NCBI GenBank assembly: GCA_035631875.1
Contig: DASQHX010000011.1
Coordinates: forward strand, 62,001 to 126,000
Direction of reading: 5' to 3'
Source of the DNA: Nitrosopumilaceae archaeon
GTDB taxonomy: Archaea; Thermoproteota; Nitrososphaeria; Nitrososphaerales; Nitrosopumilaceae
DNA: 64,000 bases
In this document: one piece after another, positions 6,062 through 23,164 of the stretch
Layout of the letters: the number at the start of each line of letters is the position of its first letter
Numbering within the stretch: the first letter of the stretch is position 1
The notes under the pieces: generated by a model
What the model was told of the DNA's origin: nothing
What the model saw: the letters and a program-made list of their open reading frames with translations, nothing else
Databases searched by the model: none
Position numbers and translations under genes: made by a program

Positions 6062-6460
6062 TTAACTCCCACTTGCTTCGGAATCTATCATTATGTAATT
6101 TGCAGTTGGAATCGGTTCAATGTATCTGATTGTCTTTTTTGGAAAATTATCCAAAATGATATTAAATATAATTTCTCTTAACGTTTCTGGAACTCCAATT
6201 AAAACATTATCTCTTGTTAAAATTTTTAATGAGTTATTTACTATTTCTGACTCGGATTTGTTTGAACGTATTTCACTTACTATGTGTGCACAATATGCCA
6301 ACAAGGCTTCATTGACGTTTAGTTTCAAATTTTTTGCAAGTTTGTCCTTAACTAATTCTACAACATTGTGAAAAATTGCATCATCTTCGTTTCTGAATTC
6401 AAACAATATCGTAAAGGAAAGATCTGATTCTCCCTTTACCACCATCTCGATTTTAATCAA
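6062..6460 (-). CDS. Divergent paralog of urease gamma subunit (UreA-like)
   Basis: A 132-residue protein whose residues 40-120 align by eye with this genome's own UreA (15344-15661). KNLKLNVNEALLAYCAHIV matches Ure[20 protein letters not shown], and LKILTRDNVLIGVPETLREI matches [21 protein letters not shown] 30-residue N-terminal segment is extra. The start is TTG at 6458-6460, overlapping the ureohydrolase stop in the string TTGA (translational coupling); an in-frame ATG lies five codons on. UreA is normally a structural subunit of the urease (UreABC)n complex, but there is no second ureB/ureC here. This copy may therefore have been recruited as a partner of the ureohydrolase or as a urease modulator (inference). 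Confidence 0.82.
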   Translation of the reverse strand: MIKIEMVVKGESDLSFTILFEFRNEDDAIFHNVVELVKDKLAKNLKLNVNEALLAYCAHIVSEIRSNKSESEIVNNSLKILTRDNVLIGVPETLREIIFNIILDNFPKKTIRYIEPIPTANYIMIDSEASGS

Positions 6461-7575
6461 TTTCTTTTTGGAATCTTTGCTTTTGGACCGTTTCCAAAGT
6501 CATAAGTATGATTTTTTCCACGATATGCATTTGGTCGTATCGGTTTGCCTTCAGTTTGGCCTTTCTTAGTAAGAGATAATCCTGCGAGAAGTTCTACAAT
6601 CAATCTGTTTGCCAAGCCTGATGTAATTCCTCCATTGTAAGAGTTCCCATCACTTACATCATAGTTTGGTGCAACTTCTACAAGATCAAATGCAAACTTG
6701 TCTGGATCAAATGATGTGGAAAGCAACCTCATCAATCTCATCCCTTCTCTTGATGTCAAGCCGTTTGGTTCAGGCTCTCCTGTTCCTGGAGCATATGCTG
6801 GATCAAATGTATCAATGTCCCAGCTGATGTATACTGCATCTACGTTATCATTAGCCCTATCTGCCGCTTCTTTTGCAATCCTATCGATTCCTAATTCCTC
6901 TACATCTAGCATGGTAAACCATTGAAAGTCTTGATCTGCCATCCACTTGTATAGATCTGGTCCAGGCCAATATCCACGAGGTCCAATTAGTGTGTAATTC
7001 TTTCCTTTAAGACATCCTAATTCCATTATTCTTCTAATGTGAGCCCCATGGTCATACTTGAAACCGCATAGACCTTGTGGTGCACAGTCAGCATGTGTAT
7101 CAATGTGAATCATTCCTATGTTTTTGTATTTTTTTGCAAATGCTCGTACATTTGCAAAAGTAATAGAGTGATCACCACCAAGCATGACTGGGATTCCATC
7201 AACATCTAATACTTCTTTGACTTTGTCAGTCATTCTTCTATGGGATTCTACTACATCACCTGGTGAAATATTGACATCTCCATAATCAACTGTCCTGAAA
7301 ACTCCAAATGGGTCAACGCCAGTTTCGATGTTGAAATGTTCGTATGGAGGAGATGGTACGGTAGAAGCTGCTCTTATAGCTCTTGGTCCATATCTAGCAC
7401 CTGGTCTGATAGTTGTTCCAAAGTCAAAAGGTTCACCTATTATTGCTACATCAGGTCGTACTTTTTCTAACTCGGCTTTACTTCTTAACCAAGGTAATTT
7501 CAAGAACGTTGGTATACCAACAAAAATCGGTTCGTCATTACCCTTGTATGAATCTCCATAAAATTCCATTCCCAT
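6457..7575 (-). CDS. Ureohydrolase (agmatinase/guanidinase family)
   Basis: A 372-residue arginase-superfamily enzyme that splits a guanidino compound to release urea. All six binuclear-metal ligands are visible: H136 in GGDHS, D159/H161/D163 in HIDTHAD, D253/D255 in SWDIDTFDP. The substrate-loop signature PGTGEPEPNGLTSREG follows. It is longer than typical agmatinases (about 300 aa), nearer the length of the nickel-dependent guanidine hydrolases. Agmatine is a plausible substrate because a pyruvoyl arginine decarboxylase lies at 20401, but guanidine or guanidino acids cannot be excluded. It leads a unit with the UreA paralog, and two copies of the GTAGATTACG motif lie upstream (7621-7705). 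Confidence 0.9.
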   Translation of the reverse strand: MGMEFYGDSYKGNDEPIFVGIPTFLKLPWLRSKAELEKVRPDVAIIGEPFDFGTTIRPGARYGPRAIRAASTVPSPPYEHFNIETGVDPFGVFRTVDYGDVNISPGDVVESHRRMTDKVKEVLDVDGIPVMLGGDHSITFANVRAFAKKYKNIGMIHIDTHADCAPQGLCGFKYDHGAHIRRIMELGCLKGKNYTLIGPRGYWPGPDLYKWMADQDFQWFTMLDVEELGIDRIAKEAADRANDNVDAVYISWDIDTFDPAYAPGTGEPEPNGLTSREGMRLMRLLSTSFDPDKFAFDLVEVAPNYDVSDGNSYNGGITSGLANRLIVELLAGLSLTKKGQTEGKPIRPNAYRGKNHTYDFGNGPKAKIPKRN

Positions 7576-8877: not shown

Positions 8878-10470
8878 ATGGCTGATATTCCTCTCTATTA
8901 TCCCGTTGTAGTTATGGCATTTGTTGCTGCGACTGCTGCCATAGGAGTTCTTGCAGTAAAATTTGTCAAGAAAAGTAGTAAACGTTACATTGTTGCAGGT
9001 AAGAGCTTGCCTTTATTTTTTATTGGTACAATGTTGGTTTCTGAAGCAGTTGATGGGAATGCATCACTTGGAAATGTATCATTATCAGCTTCGTTTGGAT
9101 TCTGGGGTGGTGCAGTTATACCGCTTGGTTTGGCAATTTGCCTTGTCTTAACAGGTGCTTTCTTTGGAAAAAGATTCAACCGAATGAATATGATTACACT
9201 GGCAGATTTCTACTATAGGCGTTATGGAAATGTTACCGAAGTCATGTCAGGCACTTTGATGTCAATAAGTTTCATTGTACTTGTAGCTGGAAACCTTGGT
9301 GCAAGTGGTTACATTCTATCTGTAGTTTTAGGTATACCGTTGATCTATGCTATGTTGATTTCTACAGCTGTAGTATTATTGTATACATATTTTGGTGGAC
9401 TATTTTCATGTGCATATACTGATATCTTCCACATCTATCTAGCAGTGGTTGGATTCTGGGCAGGTTTTATCTATTTCATTGGTCCTTGGTCTCCTATTCC
9501 GGGTGGATTGGAAACCATTGTAGCAAATGTACCTACTAACTTCATGGACATGTCTGGTCTATATGATGTTGGTAATGGCGCCCTAGTCAATTGGGCAGGC
9601 ATAATATCATTAGGTATAGGGGATATTGTTGCACTAGACTTTATGGAACGTGTATTTGCTGCAGATGGTGGACGAACAGCTCAAAAGGGTTCGTATATGG
9701 CTGCAGGATTAACTCTGTTGATACTTATTCCTACTACAATGATGGGAATAATTGGACTAACAGTTGAACCAAATGTTGTTAAAGCTGATCCATATACTCT
9801 CTATCCAATTATAGCAATAAAGCACATGCCCGCGGTGATTGGTATCTTGATGCTTGTAAGTACGATAAGCTGTGGTATGTCTACAGCAAACGGAGGAACA
9901 TTAGCAATTGCAAGTGTGTTATCAAGAAACATGTTACAACGTAACATTGTTACAAGATTTTTGAAAAGAGAAAAACTAACTGACAGACAATTGCTGGTGT
10001 CCACCAGACTTTTCGTTATCCCTATGTTCTTTACTGCATTTGCGTTAGGTTATCTAATTCCAAGACCTGGTGTTTACTTGATACTTGCCTTTGATATTGT
10101 CTTGGCAGGATGTCTCATACCTCTAGTCTTTGGAACATTCTGGAAAAAATCAACCTCAGCTGGAGCTGTGGCATCAATTGTTGTAGGTTCGGTGTTAAGA
10201 TTAATCTTATTTTTCCTAATAACCAATGCGGCTCCTACAGATCCAATGGCTGCATATGCTGGATTAGATACAATGATTCCACCACTAATCTCACTTCCAG
10301 TCTTTATACTAGTGAGTTTGGCAACACAAAAGAGGAATCCACCCAGACATGATGTTGTGTATCTCATACCAAATGATTCTGATGTTGTTACTGGTGCAGA
10401 TGTAAAAGATTGGGTTAACCCTATTGACACAAGACAAGTTGGCAGAGGAAGTCATGGGGGAGCAGTATGA
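8878..10470 (+). CDS. Sodium:solute symporter family transporter, probably urea
   Basis: A 530-residue integral membrane protein with about 13-14 hydrophobic spans, of the SSS (LeuT-fold) family. The segment YIVAGKSLPLFFIGTMLVSE followed by GNVSLSASFGFWGGAVIPLG is typical of SSS helices 1-2, and NMITLADFYYRRYGN is the conserved loop after helix 3. Within the SSS family the relatives beside thaumarchaeal urease genes are DUR3-like urea importers, and this gene is 2.8 kb from ureC. Urea uptake is therefore the best inference, but substrate residues cannot be read directly. It is followed by a Usp gene (35-bp gap), likely co-transcribed. Confidence 0.82.
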   Translation: MADIPLYYPVVVMAFVAATAAIGVLAVKFVKKSSKRYIVAGKSLPLFFIGTMLVSEAVDGNASLGNVSLSASFGFWGGAVIPLGLAICLVLTGAFFGKRFNRMNMITLADFYYRRYGNVTEVMSGTLMSISFIVLVAGNLGASGYILSVVLGIPLIYAMLISTAVVLLYTYFGGLFSCAYTDIFHIYLAVVGFWAGFIYFIGPWSPIPGGLETIVANVPTNFMDMSGLYDVGNGALVNWAGIISLGIGDIVALDFMERVFAADGGRTAQKGSYMAAGLTLLILIPTTMMGIIGLTVEPNVVKADPYTLYPIIAIKHMPAVIGILMLVSTISCGMSTANGGTLAIASVLSRNMLQRNIVTRFLKREKLTDRQLLVSTRLFVIPMFFTAFALGYLIPRPGVYLILAFDIVLAGCLIPLVFGTFWKKSTSAGAVASIVVGSVLRLILFFLITNAAPTDPMAAYAGLDTMIPPLISLPVFILVSLATQKRNPPRHDVVYLIPNDSDVVTGADVKDWVNPIDTRQVGRGSHGGAV

Positions 10471-13245: not shown

Positions 13246-13263
13246 TTTTCGATTGTCGAACTA
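13246..13263. promoter_or_regulatory. Palindrome TTTTCGATTGTCGAACTA after ureC
   Basis: Third copy of the TTCGAYWGTCGAA palindrome. Its right end is the ureC TAG stop, as at 11008 where it overlaps the ParB-like stop. It lies between ureC and the 84-aa gene, so it could be an operator for that gene or a 3'-end RNA hairpin for the urease message. Confidence 0.5.
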
Positions 13264-14973
13264 AAACAAGTGATACAATCTTGCCATGGCTAGTTTTTGA
13301 GATGGTTCTGTTGTGGCTAGTTTTCCATCAACTGTAACTTTGTAAGTTTCAGGATCAATCTCTATTTTTGGAACTAAATTATTGTAGAGCATATTTTTCT
13401 TACCAATTTTTCTACAATTTTTAACTGGAAGTAATTTCTTTTTCAAACCTATTTTTTTTGATAGCCCATTCCGTATTGCTAGTTTTGAAGTAAAAGTTAC
13501 AGACGTAGTATGTATTGCTTTTCCAAGTGCACCAAACATTGGACGGTAATACACTGGCTCTGGTGTTGGAATTGATGCATTGGGATCACCCATCAAAGAA
13601 TAAGCTATAAACCCACCTTTTATTACCATTTTAGGTTTCACGCCAAAGAATTCAGGACTCCAAATCACAATATCAGCTAATTTTCCTGGCTCTAAAGAAC
13701 CAACATAATCAGAGATTCCATGTGTTATTGCTGGGTTGATGGTAATTTTTGAAAGATATCTTTTCACACGAAGATTATCGTTATCTTCTGATTCTTTTGT
13801 TAAACGACTGGACATTTTTTTCATTTTATCAGCTGTTTGCCATGCTCTGATGCTCACTTCTCCAACTCTACCCATTGCTTGACTATCAGAAGAATACATG
13901 CTTAGAGCACCAATATCATGTAATACATCTTCTGCAGCTATTGTTTCACCTCTAATTCTTGACTCCGCAAAGGCCACGTCCTCTCTTACAGAGGGATTTA
14001 GATGATGACAAACCATCATCATATCTATGTGTTCATCTAGAGTATTAACCGTAAACGGTCTTGTTGGGGTTGTAGAAGAAGGAAGAATGTTTTTCTTACC
14101 TGCTATTTTCATGATATCTGGTGCATGTCCACCACCAGCACCTTCTGTGTGATAAGTATGAATTGTTCTTCCGGCTATTGCTTCAATTGTATCATCAACA
14201 AAACCGCATTCATTTAGCGTGTCTGTATGGATAGCTACCTGAGTGTCAGTTTTATCTGCAACACGTAATGCTGCATCAATAGTGGCAGGAGTAGAACCCC
14301 AGTCCTCATGTAATTTCAAACCACAAGCTCCTGCTGCAATTTGTTCCATTAATGCAGGTTCCAAGGAATCATTTCCCTTACCTAATAGACCAAAATTTAG
14401 TGGCAGATCATCCAGAGCTTCAAGCATTCTGTGAATGTTCCAAGAACCAGGAGTGCATGTTGTTGCCTTAGTACCATCAGCAGGCCCAGTACCTCCTCCT
14501 ATCATTGTTGTAGTTCCACTGCAAATTGCCTCTACGGCTTGTTGTGGAGAAATAAAATGAATATGAGTATCAATTATTCCAGGAGTGCATATAGTGTGTT
14601 CTCCAGCTATTACCTCTGTGTTTGCAGATATTACCATGTCAACTCCATCCATGACGTTTGGATTGCCTGCTTTTCCTATTCCAGCTATTAACCCGTTTTT
14701 GATACCAATATCTGCTTTGATAATTCCAAGTACAGGATCCATGATAATTGCATTTGTTATTACTAGATCAAGTGAATTTTTACTAGTAACACCACTTGCT
14801 TGTCCCATTCCGTCTCTAGCACTTTTGCCACCGCCAAAAACTATCTCGTCACCATAATTTTGAAAATCTTTTTCAATTTCGATTATAAGTTCAGTATCAG
14901 CTAGTCTAATTTTGTCGCTCTTTGTAGGACCATAAAGATCAACATATTGTTTTCTTGGAATTATCAATGTCAT
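13261..14973 (-). CDS. ureC: Urease alpha subunit
   Basis: A 570-residue catalytic subunit that hydrolyses urea to ammonia and carbamate at a dinickel centre. Nickel ligands are H137 and H139 (IDTHIHF), carbamylated K220 ([10 protein letters not shown]), H249 and H275 ([24 protein letters not shown]) and D363 (YSSDSQAMG). The flap histidine is in [20 protein letters not shown]. Length equals the family norm. It overlaps ureB by 4 bp. In ammonia oxidisers it supplies ammonia (and CO2) from urea. Confidence 0.98.
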
Positions 14974-15341
14974 TTCTGATCAATATTTTTGAATCCTTTT
15001 TTTCGCATTTTTTTTAGAGCAATCTGCTTTTTAGAAACGAGTTTGCCATTCACAAGACCATTGAATCCATATACTGTTTTCAGACCACCGTACTCTGTTA
15101 ATTCTACCTCTTTTGTGTCACCTGGTTCAAACCTAACTGATGTTCCTGCTGGTATATTCAAATGATAACCGTATGCCCTCTCGCGAGAGAAGACAAGAGC
15201 CTTATTAGTTTCAAAGAAATGTGTATGAGAGCCTACCTGTATTGGCCTGTCCCCAGAGTTGCTAATCTTAATCTTTACAGTCTTCTTACCTTTATTTGCA
15301 ATAATAGGCGTGTCATTTAAGAAATATTCTCCTGGGATCAT
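14970..15341 (-). CDS. ureB: Urease beta subunit
   Basis: A 123-residue structural subunit. The family core is clear: [40 protein letters not shown], then [20 protein letters not shown]. It stops 4 bp inside ureC and begins 3 bp after ureA, so the three structural genes are translationally coupled. It is separate from UreA here rather than fused as in Helicobacter. Confidence 0.97.
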
Positions 15342-15343
15342 TG

Positions 15344-15661
15344 CTATACTATCGGATCGTGAACTGTGACAAGCTTGGTTCCATCATCAAAAGTTGCTTC
15401 AGTTTGTACTGTTTTAATCAACTCGGGAACACCAGGTAACACATCGTCTTTTGTTAACACTTTTCTTCCTGAGCTCATTAGTTCTGAAACCGATTTTCCA
15501 TCTCTAGCTCCCTCAACTATATGATCTGCAATAAGAGCTAAAGCTTCTACATAGTTGAGCTTCAATCCTCTTGCCTTTCTTCTTCGTGCAACTTCAGCTG
15601 TCATAAAAATATAGAGTTTATCAATTTCTCTAGGGGTAAGCATCATATCAATATCTATCAT
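15344..15661 (-). CDS. ureA: Urease gamma subunit
   Basis: A 105-residue subunit with the standard opening [20 protein letters not shown] and the conserved middle [20 protein letters not shown] and [16 protein letters not shown]. First gene of ureABC. The TATA-like TTATAAATATTAAATA (reverse strand, about 15673-15688) lies 12-27 bp before the ATG, so the transcript should be nearly leaderless. It is the bona fide counterpart of the divergent copy at 6062-6460. Confidence 0.97.
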
Positions 15662-15736: not shown

Positions 15737-16240
15737 ATGCTTACAATCACATCTGTAATAGGAAATATTTTTGACGACAAAAAACTAATGATGAAATTCA
15801 AACAAATGGAATCCAAAAAAAGATGTGAAAGACTAAAAATATCACGCCTTGAGTTAGAAAGAAGCAGAATTAGGAAGAAAACAGATTTTGGAACAGATGT
15901 AGGTCTTATTCTTGATTCTGGAACAAGACTATATCATGGCGATGTCATAATATCAAATACCAACAAATTCATCATGATTGAACAATTGCCTGAGAAAGTG
16001 ATCTCTATAAGAATAAAGAAACTAAAGAAAAATTCTACTGGATTAATAACGTTAGGGCATATTATAGGAAATAGACACAAACCAATTGTAATCAATAATG
16101 ACATTCTATACTTTCCAATTCAAGCGCATTCTGAAGTTGAGGTGTTTAAAAAACTATTAGATGTAGTAACTAATCTAGAGATTGATGTAGAGGAGCAGAT
16201 TTTTCAACCTCAACATGGAATGTATATGCATGAACACTGA
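15737..16240 (+). CDS. ureE: Urease accessory protein UreE (nickel metallochaperone)
   Basis: A 167-residue protein with the UreE layout. The N-terminal peptide-binding-like domain has TDVGLILDSGTRLYHGDVII. The C-terminal metal domain has ITLGHIIGNRHKPIVI, equivalent to the LGNRHxP nickel site, and ends with a His tail QPQHGMYMHEH. UreE hands nickel to UreG during urease activation. First gene of the divergent accessory unit ureE-F-G-D. It overlaps ureF by 26 bp. Confidence 0.95.
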   Translation: MLTITSVIGNIFDDKKLMMKFKQMESKKRCERLKISRLELERSRIRKKTDFGTDVGLILDSGTRLYHGDVIISNTNKFIMIEQLPEKVISIRIKKLKKNSTGLITLGHIIGNRHKPIVINNDILYFPIQAHSEVEVFKKLLDVVTNLEIDVEEQIFQPQHGMYMHEH

Positions 16241-16931
16241 TCACGAGTTTTTTTTAATGCAGCTGGCAGATTCTTTTTTTCCATCTGGCATGTTTGGACT
16301 GTCGAATGGTCTGGAATCACTTGCAAAGCATGATAGAATCAAAAACGAACAAGATGTTTTAAATTTTATTGAACAGCAGATAAAATTTCAACTTGTACCT
16401 TGCGATTGTATGGTTTTCTTAATTGCTATGGAGGCTGCAAAAAATGAGAACATTGAAGAACTTGTGGAAGCAGATAACAGATTCTATTCTATAAGACTCA
16501 TACGAGAAGTAAGAAACACATCTGTTAGAACTGGTTCACAAATACTGAATTGTATTATTCAAATGACATTTGACAAAAAGAAAAGTAACACTGCAAAAAA
16601 TTTTCAAAAGAAAATAGCATCTAATGAAACTGTTGGAACATATCCTGTTTGTCTAGGAATAGCTGCAAATCTTTTGAATATTCCAGCTAAAAGTGGTGTA
16701 CGCATGATGCTTTATTCATTTAGCCAAAGTGTCATAGCAGCAGCAATTAGACTGGGAATAATAGAACACATAAGCGGTCAGATAATTCTAACAACGCTTG
16801 CCGACAAGATTAATTCTATTTCAACGAACATTAAGAAAGAATCGTTAAACAGCCTTTGGCAACTAACACCTGTGACAGATATTTTTCAAATGATTCATGA
16901 ACATGATGATTCTAAAATGTTCATTACATAA
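16215..16931 (+). CDS. ureF: Urease accessory protein UreF
   Basis: A 238-residue helical accessory protein. It opens with LMQLADSFFPSGMFGLSNGLE, the UreF signature (SDSxFPxGxFxxSxGLE). It continues with VRTGSQILNCIIQ and YPVCLGIAANLLNIP, typical of later helices, then FSQSVIAAAIRLGIIEH. UreF joins UreD on apo-urease and controls UreG GTPase during carbamylation and nickel insertion. The true start may be one of the ATG codons at 16215-16230 within the ureE end. Confidence 0.94.
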   Translation: MECICMNTDHEFFLMQLADSFFPSGMFGLSNGLESLAKHDRIKNEQDVLNFIEQQIKFQLVPCDCMVFLIAMEAAKNENIEELVEADNRFYSIRLIREVRNTSVRTGSQILNCIIQMTFDKKKSNTAKNFQKKIASNETVGTYPVCLGIAANLLNIPAKSGVRMMLYSFSQSVIAAAIRLGIIEHISGQIILTTLADKINSISTNIKKESLNSLWQLTPVTDIFQMIHEHDDSKMFIT

Positions 16932-16948
16932 TTTAGAGGTGCAACTAG

Positions 16949-17614
16949 ATGTTAAAAAATAAAAAAATACCGAAAGTTGGAATTGGTGGTCCTGTAGGAT
17001 CTGGAAAAACACGTCTAATTGAGAGAGTGGTACCCATTCTCATAAAAAGAGGTTACAGGTGCTGCATAATATCAAATGATGTAATATCAAAGGAAGATGC
17101 AGAAAGAATGCAACGAACGTTATCTACAGAGCTGAAAGTTATGCCTGAAAACATGATTATAGGAATAGCCACAGGTGGTTGTCCACATACTGCTATACGT
17201 GAAGATCCGACAATAAATTTGGCAGTAATTGAAGAAATCGAAAAGAAAGATCCTACTCTTGATCTGATTATTATTGAAAGTGGAGGCGACAATGTCATGA
17301 CCACTTTTAGTCCTGCACTTGCAGATTATTTCATTTACATAATAGACGTAGCTGGAGGAGACAAGTATCCAAGAAAAGGCGGATTGGGAATAGAAAGTAG
17401 CGATTTACTTGTGATCAACAAAATTGATCTTGCAACACATGTAGGAGCAGATCTTGCTGTAATGGAAAGGGATGCAAAAAAAATACGAGCAGAAAAATCC
17501 TATGTTTTTGTTAATTGTCAGACAGGTGAAGGCATAAAACAAGTCGCTGAAAACATAATCAAATCAGTACTGTTTGATAAAAAACCAATTGTCAAAAAGG
17601 ATCAAATAAAATGA
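16949..17614 (+). CDS. ureG: Urease accessory GTPase UreG
   Basis: A 221-residue SIMIBI-class GTPase. The P-loop is GIGGPVGSGKTRL near residue 12. The nickel-binding CPH motif is in IATGGCPHTAIREDPTIN, and the switch and guanine-specificity motifs are ESGGDN and VINKID. UreG delivers nickel to urease with UreE, UreF and UreD. It overlaps ureD by 4 bp. Confidence 0.97.
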   Translation: MLKNKKIPKVGIGGPVGSGKTRLIERVVPILIKRGYRCCIISNDVISKEDAERMQRTLSTELKVMPENMIIGIATGGCPHTAIREDPTINLAVIEEIEKKDPTLDLIIIESGGDNVMTTFSPALADYFIYIIDVAGGDKYPRKGGLGIESSDLLVINKIDLATHVGADLAVMERDAKKIRAEKSYVFVNCQTGEGIKQVAENIIKSVLFDKKPIVKKDQIK

Positions 17615-18516
17615 ATTCACAAATTCCAGATATTTTCAAGAATTATGTAAACAAGAAATTAAAGATGCCAGGTCAAAATGGTACTATAGAGATAGAGATT
17701 CAAGTAAATGAAGATTCTAAAACATACATTAAATCACTGCTGTCAAAAGCACCATTTTTGATTCAAAAAGCGATGTATCCTGATACAGATTACCCAAATT
17801 TTGCCCACATCTACATAATGTCATCTTCTGGAGGTATTTTGCAGGGAGATGAACAGAAAATTGATGTTGTCATGGGTATGAACTCATCAGCAAGAATTAC
17901 CACTCAATCAGCAACTAAAATTTACAAGATGGATGGTGGTTATGCTTCTCAATACATTAACATACATAATCAGGAAGGGAGTTATCTGGAATTTATTCCA
18001 CATCAGATCATACCATTTAAGTCATCTAGATTTTATCAGGAAGTAAATCTTGAGGTTGCAGATAATGCAATTTTGATCTACTCTGAAATTATATCCGCAG
18101 GTAGAATTGCGTCTGGTGAAAAGTTTGATTTTGATCTATGCTTTCTTCGTACATCAGCTTATAGAAATGGTAAGATGCTGTTTACAGATGTCATGAGTTT
18201 GAATAAGAAAGATAAATCAAATCTTGAATCTGTATTTGGAGGAAAGACTATCTTTTCTACCGTTTACATAATTGGAAATTCTATTCAAATAGAAAGCATT
18301 GTAGACAAGATTAATTTAGCAACCAAAAGTGATTCATTATTAGCTAGCTCTTCGTCTTTACCTTATGATTCTGGTATTATTGTGAGAATGCTTGCTGATT
18401 CTGTTTCTGAAATCATATCTCTAACAGAATCTATATCTGGTATTCTTAGAAGTGTTGCCAAAAAAAATTATAAAATAGAACCTACAATTTCAAATTCGTC
18501 AATAGATATCGCATAA
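17611..18516 (+). CDS. ureD: Urease accessory protein UreD/UreH
   Basis: A 301-residue beta-rich scaffold. Recognisable UreD patterns include IYIMSSSGGILQGDEQKIDV (family SPGGGxxxGD), ITTQSATKIYKMDGGYASQY and LEFIPHQIIPFKSSRFYQE. The later EIISAGRIASGEKFDFDLC corresponds to the GRxxxGE segment. It binds apo-urease and channels nickel. Last of the accessory quartet; the thermosome gene follows after a 72-bp gap with its own TATA-like TTTTATAAT. Confidence 0.93.
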   Translation: MNSQIPDIFKNYVNKKLKMPGQNGTIEIEIQVNEDSKTYIKSLLSKAPFLIQKAMYPDTDYPNFAHIYIMSSSGGILQGDEQKIDVVMGMNSSARITTQSATKIYKMDGGYASQYINIHNQEGSYLEFIPHQIIPFKSSRFYQEVNLEVADNAILIYSEIISAGRIASGEKFDFDLCFLRTSAYRNGKMLFTDVMSLNKKDKSNLESVFGGKTIFSTVYIIGNSIQIESIVDKINLATKSDSLLASSSSLPYDSGIIVRMLADSVSEIISLTESISGILRSVAKKNYKIEPTISNSSIDIA

Positions 18517-18588
18517 ATTTTTTCTGTTTCTGAAATTTTTCGATCTATTGATCAGAAGTTTTATAATTACTAAATCCAGTGTACTTGC

Positions 18589-20286
18589 ATGAGTTCTACA
18601 AGAGATTTGCTTGGAGGCGGTACACAATATTCTGTAGGAGATGAGGTTAGAAGATACAATCTACTTGCAGGCAAATTAATTGCAGATCTCATCAAAAGTT
18701 CATTTGGACCAAGAGGATTTGAAAAAATGTATATTGATCTTTTGGGCGAAGTTACTCTTACTAAAAGTGGTTCTACAATATTGCGCAAAATTGACGTTGA
18801 GCACCCTGCCGCCAAGACTATGATAGATGCATCAAATTCAGTTGATAATGAAGTAGGGGATGGAACAATATCTGTAGTTATTTTAGCTGGTTCTCTTCTT
18901 GAAAAAGCAGAAAAATTATTGGATCTGGGCATGTCTCCTTCTACAATTGAGACAGGATACAAAAAAGCAGCAGAGCAGTCACTTGATATTGTAAGATCAA
19001 TTGCGAAATTATATAATTATAAAAATAAAGAAGTGATGATTAGATTAGCTGAAACATGTTTACGATCAAAGGCTATTTCGGTACTATGTGAAAAAAAATC
19101 TGTAGCGAAATTAGTGACTGAGGCATTTTGTACAATAGCAGATTTTACAAATAAAAAAATTGAGCCAGATGACATAAAGATAGAAGAAAAACCAGGTAAT
19201 ACGTCAGATATTGAACTAATCAGAGGAGTAGTTATTGACAAAACAATAGATCATTCTGCTATGCCAAGATTAATTGAGAAAGCTAAGATTCTTTTGATTA
19301 ACGAAGAACTTGATAATGAGAGAACCAAAACTGATGCAGAAATAACAATCAACACACCGCAAGAAATGCAAACATACATTTCAAAAGAAAATGATGATGT
19401 CAAGGAAAAAACTCAAAAGATAATCAATTCTGGTGCAAATGTTGTAATTTCCCAAAAAGGGATCAGTCTATTGGCTCAACACTATTTGTCTAGGGCAGGC
19501 ATAATATCACTTCGTCGAGTAAAAGAAAATGATCTCCATTGGCTATCAAAAGCAAGTGGTGGTCTAATAACAAATGATCTTGATATCATAACTGAAAAAC
19601 ATCTGGGATTTGCAGACAAAGTTTATGAAAAATTCGTAGGCGATGACAAAATGGTATTTGTAGAGGGATGTAAAAACCCAAAATCAGTCACTATCTTATT
19701 GAGAGCAACTTCTAAAAGAATACTTGATGAGTATCATCGTTCAGTAGTTGATGCTATTACAGTTCTAAAAGATTTCTTTATCAGCCCATCAATAGTAGCT
19801 GGTGGAGGTTCCACTGAAACAATTATTGCAAATGAGCTTAGAAAAAGATCATTTTTGATTGAAGGAAGAAAACAAACCGTAATTCAAAATTTTGCTGATG
19901 CTCTAGAAGAAATTCCATTAACCTTAGCTAGAAATTCTGGAATGAATCTAGTTGACACAATTGCTCAATTGAGAAACAAAAACTCTGAACACAACAATGG
20001 AAGTGTTCACTCATGGTACGGAATAGATGCAATTGAGAGAAAAGTTGGAGAAATGTACTCTAAAGATATTATCGAACCTCTTGTGGTAAAAGAACAAATA
20101 ATTAAAACAGCTGTTGAAGTAGCATCATTATTAATTCGTGTAGATGAAGTTGTTATGAAAAAACCTGCCATGTACACCCACACACATGGTGATGGTACTA
20201 CTCATTCTCATACAAAAGGAAACAAGCCACATGATCACTTTGATAAGCTTGGTAAGATGCAACGACCATCTCACCATTATTATTAA
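18589..20286 (+). CDS. Thermosome-type chaperonin subunit with His-rich C-terminus
   Basis: A 565-residue group II chaperonin (thermosome/CCT family) subunit. The equatorial motifs are KSSFGPRGFEKMYIDLLG, EVGDGTISVVILAG (D91) and SIVAGGGSTET. Two features are odd. The normally invariant TNDGATIL loop reads TKSGSTIL (K59-S60-G61), so the Asp equivalent to GroEL D87, which coordinates the ATP magnesium, is missing. The end is not a Gly-Met tail but YTHTHGDGTTHSHTKG...KPHDHF...SHHYY, with eight His in the last 36 residues, like nickel-storage tails. It lies 72 bp behind the urease accessory genes. A specialised urease-folding or nickel-holding subunit is a reasonable inference. Confidence 0.93.
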   Translation: MSSTRDLLGGGTQYSVGDEVRRYNLLAGKLIADLIKSSFGPRGFEKMYIDLLGEVTLTKSGSTILRKIDVEHPAAKTMIDASNSVDNEVGDGTISVVILAGSLLEKAEKLLDLGMSPSTIETGYKKAAEQSLDIVRSIAKLYNYKNKEVMIRLAETCLRSKAISVLCEKKSVAKLVTEAFCTIADFTNKKIEPDDIKIEEKPGNTSDIELIRGVVIDKTIDHSAMPRLIEKAKILLINEELDNERTKTDAEITINTPQEMQTYISKENDDVKEKTQKIINSGANVVISQKGISLLAQHYLSRAGIISLRRVKENDLHWLSKASGGLITNDLDIITEKHLGFADKVYEKFVGDDKMVFVEGCKNPKSVTILLRATSKRILDEYHRSVVDAITVLKDFFISPSIVAGGGSTETIIANELRKRSFLIEGRKQTVIQNFADALEEIPLTLARNSGMNLVDTIAQLRNKNSEHNNGSVHSWYGIDAIERKVGEMYSKDIIEPLVVKEQIIKTAVEVASLLIRVDEVVMKKPAMYTHTHGDGTTHSHTKGNKPHDHFDKLGKMQRPSHHYY

Positions 20287-22255: not shown

Positions 22256-22345
22256 TATACAAAGATTTCACATCATTTGCATGCAAATAATATTACTATC
22301 AAGTTTTATAATCATGTCAAGAAAATCTGATGGAGGTTTTTCATA

Positions 22346-23164
22346 GTGGTAGATGCTTGGTCATTCATTTTGTTATCAATACCCACCATGCTCATACTTG
22401 GAATGAGACATGGTCTTGATGTAGATCACATAACTGCAATTGATAATTTGGTCAGATTGCATAATGCTACAAAAAAATCTCGCTTGGTAGGGGCAGGATT
22501 TAGTTCTGGTCACATGATATCCGTCTTAGCCGAAATGATTTTTATAATATATGTAATTGGTAGCATCACAAATACTAACAATCTTGCATTTTGGGGTGGT
22601 ATAATAGGAGCTATAGCACTAGGAACAATTGGAGCTATCAACATTTATGCCATGAAAAAATGGGGAAGAAGTGGTTCAGCCATACTTGCTAGCAAAGTTC
22701 TAAACAGAACTGGAATGTTAGGGCCAATTGGTTCTGCTCTTGTTACTGGTTTAGTTTTTGGTTTAGGTTTTGATACTGCTACACAAATTTCTGCAATCAC
22801 CTTATCTGCTGTTGCATCAGCTACTGCAGGAATTCAAACAGCATTGATTCTAGCTGGATTCTTTGCTATGGGAATGATACCTGTTGATACCTTAGACAGC
22901 ATCATTCTTCGTTCTGCATTTTCTAGAATATTCAATACTAAAGGTTTTAGATACATGGCTTATGCTCTAAGTGGCGCTGCTGTAACTATTGCTTCACTTG
23001 AATCGTATGGAACCATTACTAGTAGGAACATATTGCCAGAATGGACAGGACCTCTTCTTGCTGTAACTATAATCTCTGTTTCCTTTGGGTATGCGTTTGT
23101 AACAAGAAAGAAGACAAGTGTAGATAATCATCATATTAAAGAAAAAGAAGAAAATAATCCCTAG
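22346..23164 (+). CDS. Nickel/cobalt permease (NiCoT, HoxN/NixA family)
   Basis: A 272-residue membrane protein with about seven hydrophobic spans and the NiCoT signatures in order: RHGLDVDHITAIDN (family RHAxDADHI), AGFSSGHMISV, and FGLGFDTATQISAIT (family LGFDTATE). It imports Ni2+ (possibly Co2+) at high affinity. The start is GTG 22346 behind GGAGG (22332-22336). Its presence beside urease and its motif-shared promoter argue for nickel supply to urease and possibly the ureohydrolase. The C-terminal tail is polar with HH. Confidence 0.95.
   Translation: MVDAWSFILLSIPTMLILGMRHGLDVDHITAIDNLVRLHNATKKSRLVGAGFSSGHMISVLAEMIFIIYVIGSITNTNNLAFWGGIIGAIALGTIGAINIYAMKKWGRSGSAILASKVLNRTGMLGPIGSALVTGLVFGLGFDTATQISAITLSAVASATAGIQTALILAGFFAMGMIPVDTLDSIILRSAFSRIFNTKGFRYMAYALSGAAVTIASLESYGTITSRNILPEWTGPLLAVTIISVSFGYAFVTRKKTSVDNHHIKEKEENNP

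Follow-up and report, generated by a model that had tools for sequence, protein, structure and literature searches.

What does a thermosome subunit with a histidine-rich tail and an altered ATP site do immediately behind the urease accessory genes of an ammonia-oxidizing archaeon (AOA)? The gene lies in a 64,000-nucleotide stretch (the window) of a Nitrosopumilaceae genome that is 1.76 Mb in size, 99.99% complete, and harbors four Cpn60_TCP1 genes. An earlier note on this DNA read it as a urease-dedicated, possibly ATPase-poor chaperonin subunit; both its observations and its interpretation are upheld in part. The explanation favored here, to which about equal weight is given for and against, is that of a dedicated accessory chaperonin, degenerate in its ATPase and offering metal through its His tails, which would serve a co-inherited module for the conversion of guanidino compounds to urea and on to ammonia.

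A divergent group II chaperonin with a histidine-rich tail

The gene is a single open frame encoding 565 residues that match Cpn60_TCP1 (PF00118) over positions 1–490 of 490 (E = 5e-148), in keeping with its first identification as a thermosome subunit (Table 1). No other domain is matched and GroES homology is absent, which places the protein outside the HspA-type nickel chaperones. Its AlphaFold model (pLDDT 83) shows a group II fold with a disordered tail, and the best Foldseek matches are Mm-cpn and the KS-1 thermosome (TM 0.86 by query length). The full-length domain and a fold with a built-in lid identify it as a group II chaperonin. Among the four Cpn60_TCP1 genes it is the outlier, scoring 494 bits to PF00118 versus 625–636 bits for the other three, which are canonical thermosome subunits sharing 43–45% identity with it. 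It passes NF041082 and NF041083 but, at 526.8 bits, does not reach the 671-bit cut-off of TIGR02339 (thermosome_arch) and is thus a divergent paralogue. The body of about 520 residues is under purifying selection, with dN/dS values of 0.09–0.28 against relatives.

Table 1. Features of the chaperonin locus and of the co-inherited module, in window coordinates.
Feature	Position	Strand	Basis
His-tailed divergent group II chaperonin (thermosome paralogue), 565 aa	18589..20286	+	ORF; PF00118; AlphaFold model
C-terminal tail, 36 residues, 8 His (THTHGDGTTHSHTKGNKPHDHFDKLGKMQRPSHHYY), predicted disordered	20176..20283	+	conserved pattern; pLDDT mostly <50
TKSG replacing TNDG, residues 58-61; Ser60 = GroEL D52 = KS-1 D64	18760..18771	+	alignments
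Asp91 of GDGT = GroEL D87, intact	18859..18861	+	alignment
Asp388 = GroEL D398 = KS-1 D393, retained in this protein; replaced by Asn or Ser in many others of the family	19750..19752	+	alignments
Urease structural genes ureA (15344-15661), ureB (14970-15341), ureC (13261-14973)	13261..15661	-	divergent from accessory genes
ureE-ureF-ureG-ureD; UreE ends in HEH, without long His tail	15737..18516	+	gene calls, domain matches
Promoter-like block GATCAGAAGTTTTATAATTACTAAA between ureD and chaperonin	18551..18575	+	conserved in 10 Nitrosotalea-type loci, gap otherwise variable
SSF-family sodium:solute symporter	8878..10470	+	PF00474
Arginase-family ureohydrolase, 372 aa	6457..7575	-	PF00491
Stand-alone urease-gamma-like (UreA-like) protein, 132 aa, 4 bp overlap with ureohydrolase gene	6062..6460	-	PF00547 matched by orthologues; AlphaFold model
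NicO-type nickel/cobalt transporter, 2 kb downstream of chaperonin	22346..23164	+	PF03824, E 9e-20; kept in syntenic loci

The eight histidines of the tail have a binomial chance of 5e-7 at 2% His. Their pattern is retained in all 13 of the first orthologues taken from public genomes, so the His-rich tail seen in one protein proves to be a conserved family trait. It follows HxHxDGxxHxHxxGxxHxH...QRxxHHYY and persists although overall identity drops to 42–55%; a second form, NTHCHIDGTVHAHHDGGKAHNHFEQEGLEQRQMHHYY, occurs in Nitrosopumilaceae. Alignment with the other three Cpn60 proteins of the genome, as the earlier note had proposed, shows that these have NDG and tails devoid of His runs. The segment HxHxDGxxHxH is similar to metal-binding loops such as that of the NicO protein in locus L061 (HHHTHDDGMIHAHPHTH). 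Besides nickel, His-rich tails bind zinc, copper, and cobalt. In one family member (L017:875-2737, on the same contig as L076), the apical domain contains an extra His-rich insertion of ~45 residues.

When the tail columns are left out of tree building, all 61 tailed sequences group as a single clade (SH-aLRT 99) on a long stem, apart from both the canonical thermosomes and a chaperonin encoded between ureC and ureE; the order of the deep branches is unsure because a quick method and a distant outgroup were used. Of 400 genomes of the order, 88 match a profile built on the tail alone. Among 398 genomes across the phylum no tail occurs outside AOA, and all 14 matches fall in two AOA families. 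From named loci and gene order, groups f1, f8, and f2 are taken to be Nitrosopumilaceae with Nitrosotalea, Nitrososphaeraceae, and Nitrosocaldaceae, respectively. The tailed chaperonins are an undescribed family: in the open-licence PubMed Central literature searched, no earlier account of the tail, of the decaying ATP site, or of a tie to a ureohydrolase module was found, nor anything usable on a nickel or His-rich thermosome.

Decay of the ATP site

The conserved TNDGATIL loop reads TKSGSTIL at residues 58–65, just as first noticed, and GDGTT has become GDGTI. However, the lost aspartate is not the equivalent of GroEL D87, as had been claimed. Alignment with E. coli GroEL pairs S60 with D52, D91 with D87, and D388 with D398, while the KS-1 thermosome pairs S60 with D64 and D388 with D393. 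With the equivalents of D87 and D398 intact, this protein has a substitution at one of three acidic ATP-site positions. The motif is likewise KSG or KNG in near relatives and, given the dN/dS values above, the KSG of this gene is not a sequencing slip.

Across 74 tailed sequences, the D52 position is occupied by D in 29, H in 23, N in 13, and S in 7 (2 gaps), and the D398 position by D in 42, N in 27, and S in 5. Both aspartates are lost in 24 of the 74 and both kept in 21, and the D87 equivalent within GDGT is retained in every tailed member. Asp is found at both the D52 and D398 positions in 25 of 25 canonical AOA subunits. The suspected degeneration of the ATP site thus extends to the family. 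On the family tree, parsimony requires four changes at the D52 position and five at D398. Most Nitrososphaeraceae members still read KDG, as does L013, the nearest Nitrosotalea outgroup; loss of NDG is therefore a later, repeated change within the family rather than its origin, and the expectation that it would track the tail fails.

Mutation of these aspartates cripples the ATPase of GroEL and KS-1. Titles of PDB entries record the use of Mm-cpn D386A for holding the pre-hydrolysis ATP state; a search of the open-licence PubMed Central literature on GroEL D52A/D398A gave nothing usable. CCT rings containing one ATPase-dead subunit type still fold (2017 study, PMC5413064), which suggests by analogy that loss of catalytic residues is compatible with a working mixed ring.

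Urease and the ureohydrolase module

The chaperonin starts 72 nt after the end of ureD (17611–18516), so its description as lying behind the urease accessory genes is accurate for this locus; elsewhere, the family often adjoins a symporter or a ureohydrolase. Nitrosotalea-type loci share the position directly behind ureD, as do L049 and L052 among the other Nitrosopumilaceae loci and L077, from a Nitrososphaeraceae MAG. The SSF symporter is the neighbor in genus g60 and in most of the remaining Nitrosopumilaceae, and the UreA-like/ureohydrolase pair is the neighbor in other Nitrososphaeraceae. The conserved promoter-like block in front of the gene, whose core CAGAAGTTTTATAATTACTAA is unique within the window, suggests that the chaperonin has its own TATA-type promoter in Nitrosotalea-type loci, and co-transcription with ureD is not to be assumed. 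A further stretch, AAGTTTTATAATCA at 22301–22314 (+), is similar to this block and precedes the NicO gene by about 30 nt, although such matches are also expected by chance.

The tail is essentially confined to urease-bearing AOA. A search for urease alpha (PF00449, E < 1e-15) is positive in 147 of 400 genomes, including 76 of the 88 with the tail. The other 12 were considered as urease-free exceptions, yet urease genes are present in 7 of them (truncated ureC, ureG, or others), bringing the count to 83 of 88, and the remaining five are MAGs that are 59–92% complete. Among near-complete tail genomes, only two fragmented, 92%-complete MAGs lack any urease gene, and sister genomes of their genus are urease-positive; a convincing case of the same tail in a urease-free thaumarchaeon was thus not found among these genomes. 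The converse does not hold, as the tail is missing from 71 of 154 urease genomes. The six near-complete genomes of this kind that were checked (G096, G120, G135, G186, G080, and G218) harbor just two canonical-scoring thermosomes each. Compensation by a His-rich UreE in chaperonin-less genomes was considered and rejected, for UreE is equally tail-less there.

These data bear directly on the proposal that the protein is a urease-dedicated nickel chaperonin, which would fold or nickel-load urease together with UreDEFG. It is favored by the proximity of ureD (41–134 bp away on the same strand at 13 loci of two families: L005–L013, L016, L049, L052, and L077), by the confinement of the tail to urease genomes, and by a UreE that has no long His tail in this genome. 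The proximity to ureD in Nitrosotalea and a few other genera points to urease and also counts against the explanation favored here. However, the urease genomes without the chaperonin, complete ones with only two canonical thermosomes among them, the unchanged UreE in those genomes, and the many family members encoded away from urease genes make exclusive dedication to urease rather unlikely, at roughly one case in five in our judgment. Among urease genomes, the chaperonin instead tracks a different set of genes.

Four genes recur in chaperonin neighborhoods, and all are present in the window: the UreA-like gene, the ureohydrolase gene overlapping it by 4 bp, the SSF symporter, and NicO. The AlphaFold model of the UreA-like protein matches urease gamma (2fvh, E = 2.5e-6), and a profile search finds the protein in 78 genomes. 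The specific ureohydrolase, 80–97% identical, is found in module genomes and in none of 16 urease-free genomes tested; other matches are paralogues of 26–38% identity. SSF is encoded in 21 of 21 tested chaperonin genomes and in G002, G113, and G146; barring weak matches to other family members, it is absent from all 29 urease genomes that have neither chaperonin nor module and from 16 urease-free genomes. SSF at first resembled an ordinary urea transporter, but its absence from the 29 urease genomes argues against this, and it more likely brings in the substrate of the ureohydrolase.

Within urease genomes, chaperonin presence follows the ureohydrolase/UreA-like/SSF module. The 87 near-complete urease genomes comprise 53 with chaperonin and module, 1 with chaperonin only, 4 with module only, and 29 with neither, an agreement of 82/87 for a module proxy (UreA-like profile or ureohydrolase) and a completeness cut-off that were both chosen in this analysis. 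Most module calls derive from the UreA-like profile and a subset from the ureohydrolase itself. Shuffling within genera gives a mean agreement of 56, and 0 of 20000 shuffles reach 82, with kinship inside genera remaining. The near-complete exceptions are G080, G002, G113, and G146, which have the ureohydrolase without the chaperonin, and G282, which has the chaperonin without the ureohydrolase. NicO transporters occur near chaperonin loci and have a His-rich loop in Nitrosopumilaceae; in L061:6835-7599 and L064:13562-14001, a NicO-type transporter with such a loop lies directly behind the UreA-like gene.

Proposed function and known systems

Ureohydrolases of the arginase fold (arginase, agmatinase, guanidinobutyrase, guanidinase) act on guanidino compounds to liberate urea; this would account for the module being found only alongside urease. 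The SSF symporter probably imports a guanidino compound, the ureohydrolase and the gamma-like protein would split it into urea and an amine, and urease would then free ammonia for oxidation. To our knowledge, it is unusual for an arginase-fold enzyme to have a gamma-like partner, which here might tether the ureohydrolase to urease. Derived from a thermosome paralogue, the chaperonin would act alone or in mixed rings with canonical subunits, holding or folding a metalloenzyme of this route; the ureohydrolase/gamma-like pair is the likeliest client, with urease a possible further one. The C-termini of group II chaperonins emerge at the chamber floor, so the tails would enrich nickel, or a metal like it, beside the client. 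The ATP motor may be dispensable or supplied by partner subunits, which would account for the repeated loss of catalytic aspartates.

Chaperonins are usually regarded as generalists with a near-invariant ATP site. The conserved His tail, the repeated loss of ATP-motor residues, and the co-inheritance suggest that this family is probably a dedicated pathway helper and not a general chaperone. A ring body that is kept while catalytic residues are repeatedly lost and a metal-type tail serves one pathway would, if true, represent a rare client- or metal-dedicated archaeal chaperonin. The module would further predict an organic nitrogen source upstream of urea in many AOA, missed by published scans for guanidine genes and bearing on nitrification in soil, groundwater, and ocean. 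More specifically, the chamber tails might deliver nickel to the ureohydrolase/gamma-like complex, perhaps also to urease, in a metal-loading ring whose ATP hydrolysis is lost or borrowed. This version is less likely than not, and the ureohydrolase may use Mn, making nickel loading unneeded.

A different use of the tails, as a metal store or buffer, would have them sequester nickel (or zinc or copper) on a ring that serves as a scaffold and does no folding work. A comparable role has been proposed for Hpn and HspA. The strong conservation of the tail, the decay of the ATP site, the nearby NicO transporters, and the additional apical insert of L017 all suit such a store. Yet a body of ~520 residues under purifying selection is a large scaffold for it, and GDGT is kept in every member; the reading is improbable, somewhat more so than dedication to urease. 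Helicobacter HspA, which likewise belongs to a chaperonin system, has a His-rich extension at its C-terminus, and comes from an organism with nickel enzymes, lends it some weight, since the HspA tail is described as nickel storage (PMC3856676). HspA, however, belongs to a different protein family, being a GroES co-chaperonin with a His/Cys-rich nickel tail rather than a ring ATPase. Its citation as a urease-linked precedent does not stand, because deletion of the tail impairs hydrogenase and not urease maturation (PMC3856676).

Relative to the archaeal thermosome (KS-1 alpha and Mm-cpn), the protein shares full-length homology, the fold, and GDGT, at 38–41% identity in structural alignment. 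It differs in its changed D52/D64 position, and the family in a His-rich rather than Gly-Met tail and in forming a separate, long-stemmed clade restricted to some AOA. An Hsp60 was previously reported in the urease loci of Nitrosocaldus and Nitrososphaerales and as absent from Nitrosopumilales (Abby et al. 2018, PMC5797428). What the two share is a chaperonin gene lying within or next to a urease locus of AOA. However, the gene matching that report lies between ureC and ureE, encodes ~518 aa with ~30% identity to canonical subunits, retains NDG, and lacks a His tail; position behind ureD, His tail, and separate clade thus rule out identity with the present family. L080, L081, L083, and L084 carry this ureC–ureE lineage in genomes without the His tail.

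In the hadal MAG MTA1, an additional thermosome of distinct phylogeny was noted close to urease and a Na+/solute symporter (Zhong et al. 2020, PMC7265257); it is very probably a member of the His-tailed family. It was read there as a pressure adaptation, and the main text mentions neither histidine nor nickel, arginase, or agmatinase. A general stress chaperonin, acting against high pressure or acid, would fit that single case. In contrast, the family spans two AOA families, its named loci coming from groundwater and Nitrosotalea MAGs, and within genera its presence follows the ureohydrolase module, so that a stress role is very improbable and the least favored of the readings weighed here.

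The ureohydrolase has guanidinobutyrase and guanidinase as its best solved relatives, with which it shares the arginase fold and the metal ligands DxHxD and DxD. Known guanidinases are recognized by a diagnostic Thr and Trp (T105 and W313 in N. inopinata; PMC11410670), and published scans of AOA were negative for guanidine genes (PMC11410670; PMC12625717). The present enzyme is not a known guanidinase, as GTGWPEP of GdmH reads GTGEPEP and the diagnostic Trp is replaced by Glu. The ureohydrolase/urease-gamma paralogue pair (6062–7575, minus strand) is conserved across AOA families. The ureohydrolase is 89–97% identical to Nitrososphaeraceae orthologues but about 80–82% identical to most orthologues from its own family. 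SSF is 81% identical to that of G022 and G113 versus 50–56% otherwise. These identities suggest that the module was transferred between AOA families.
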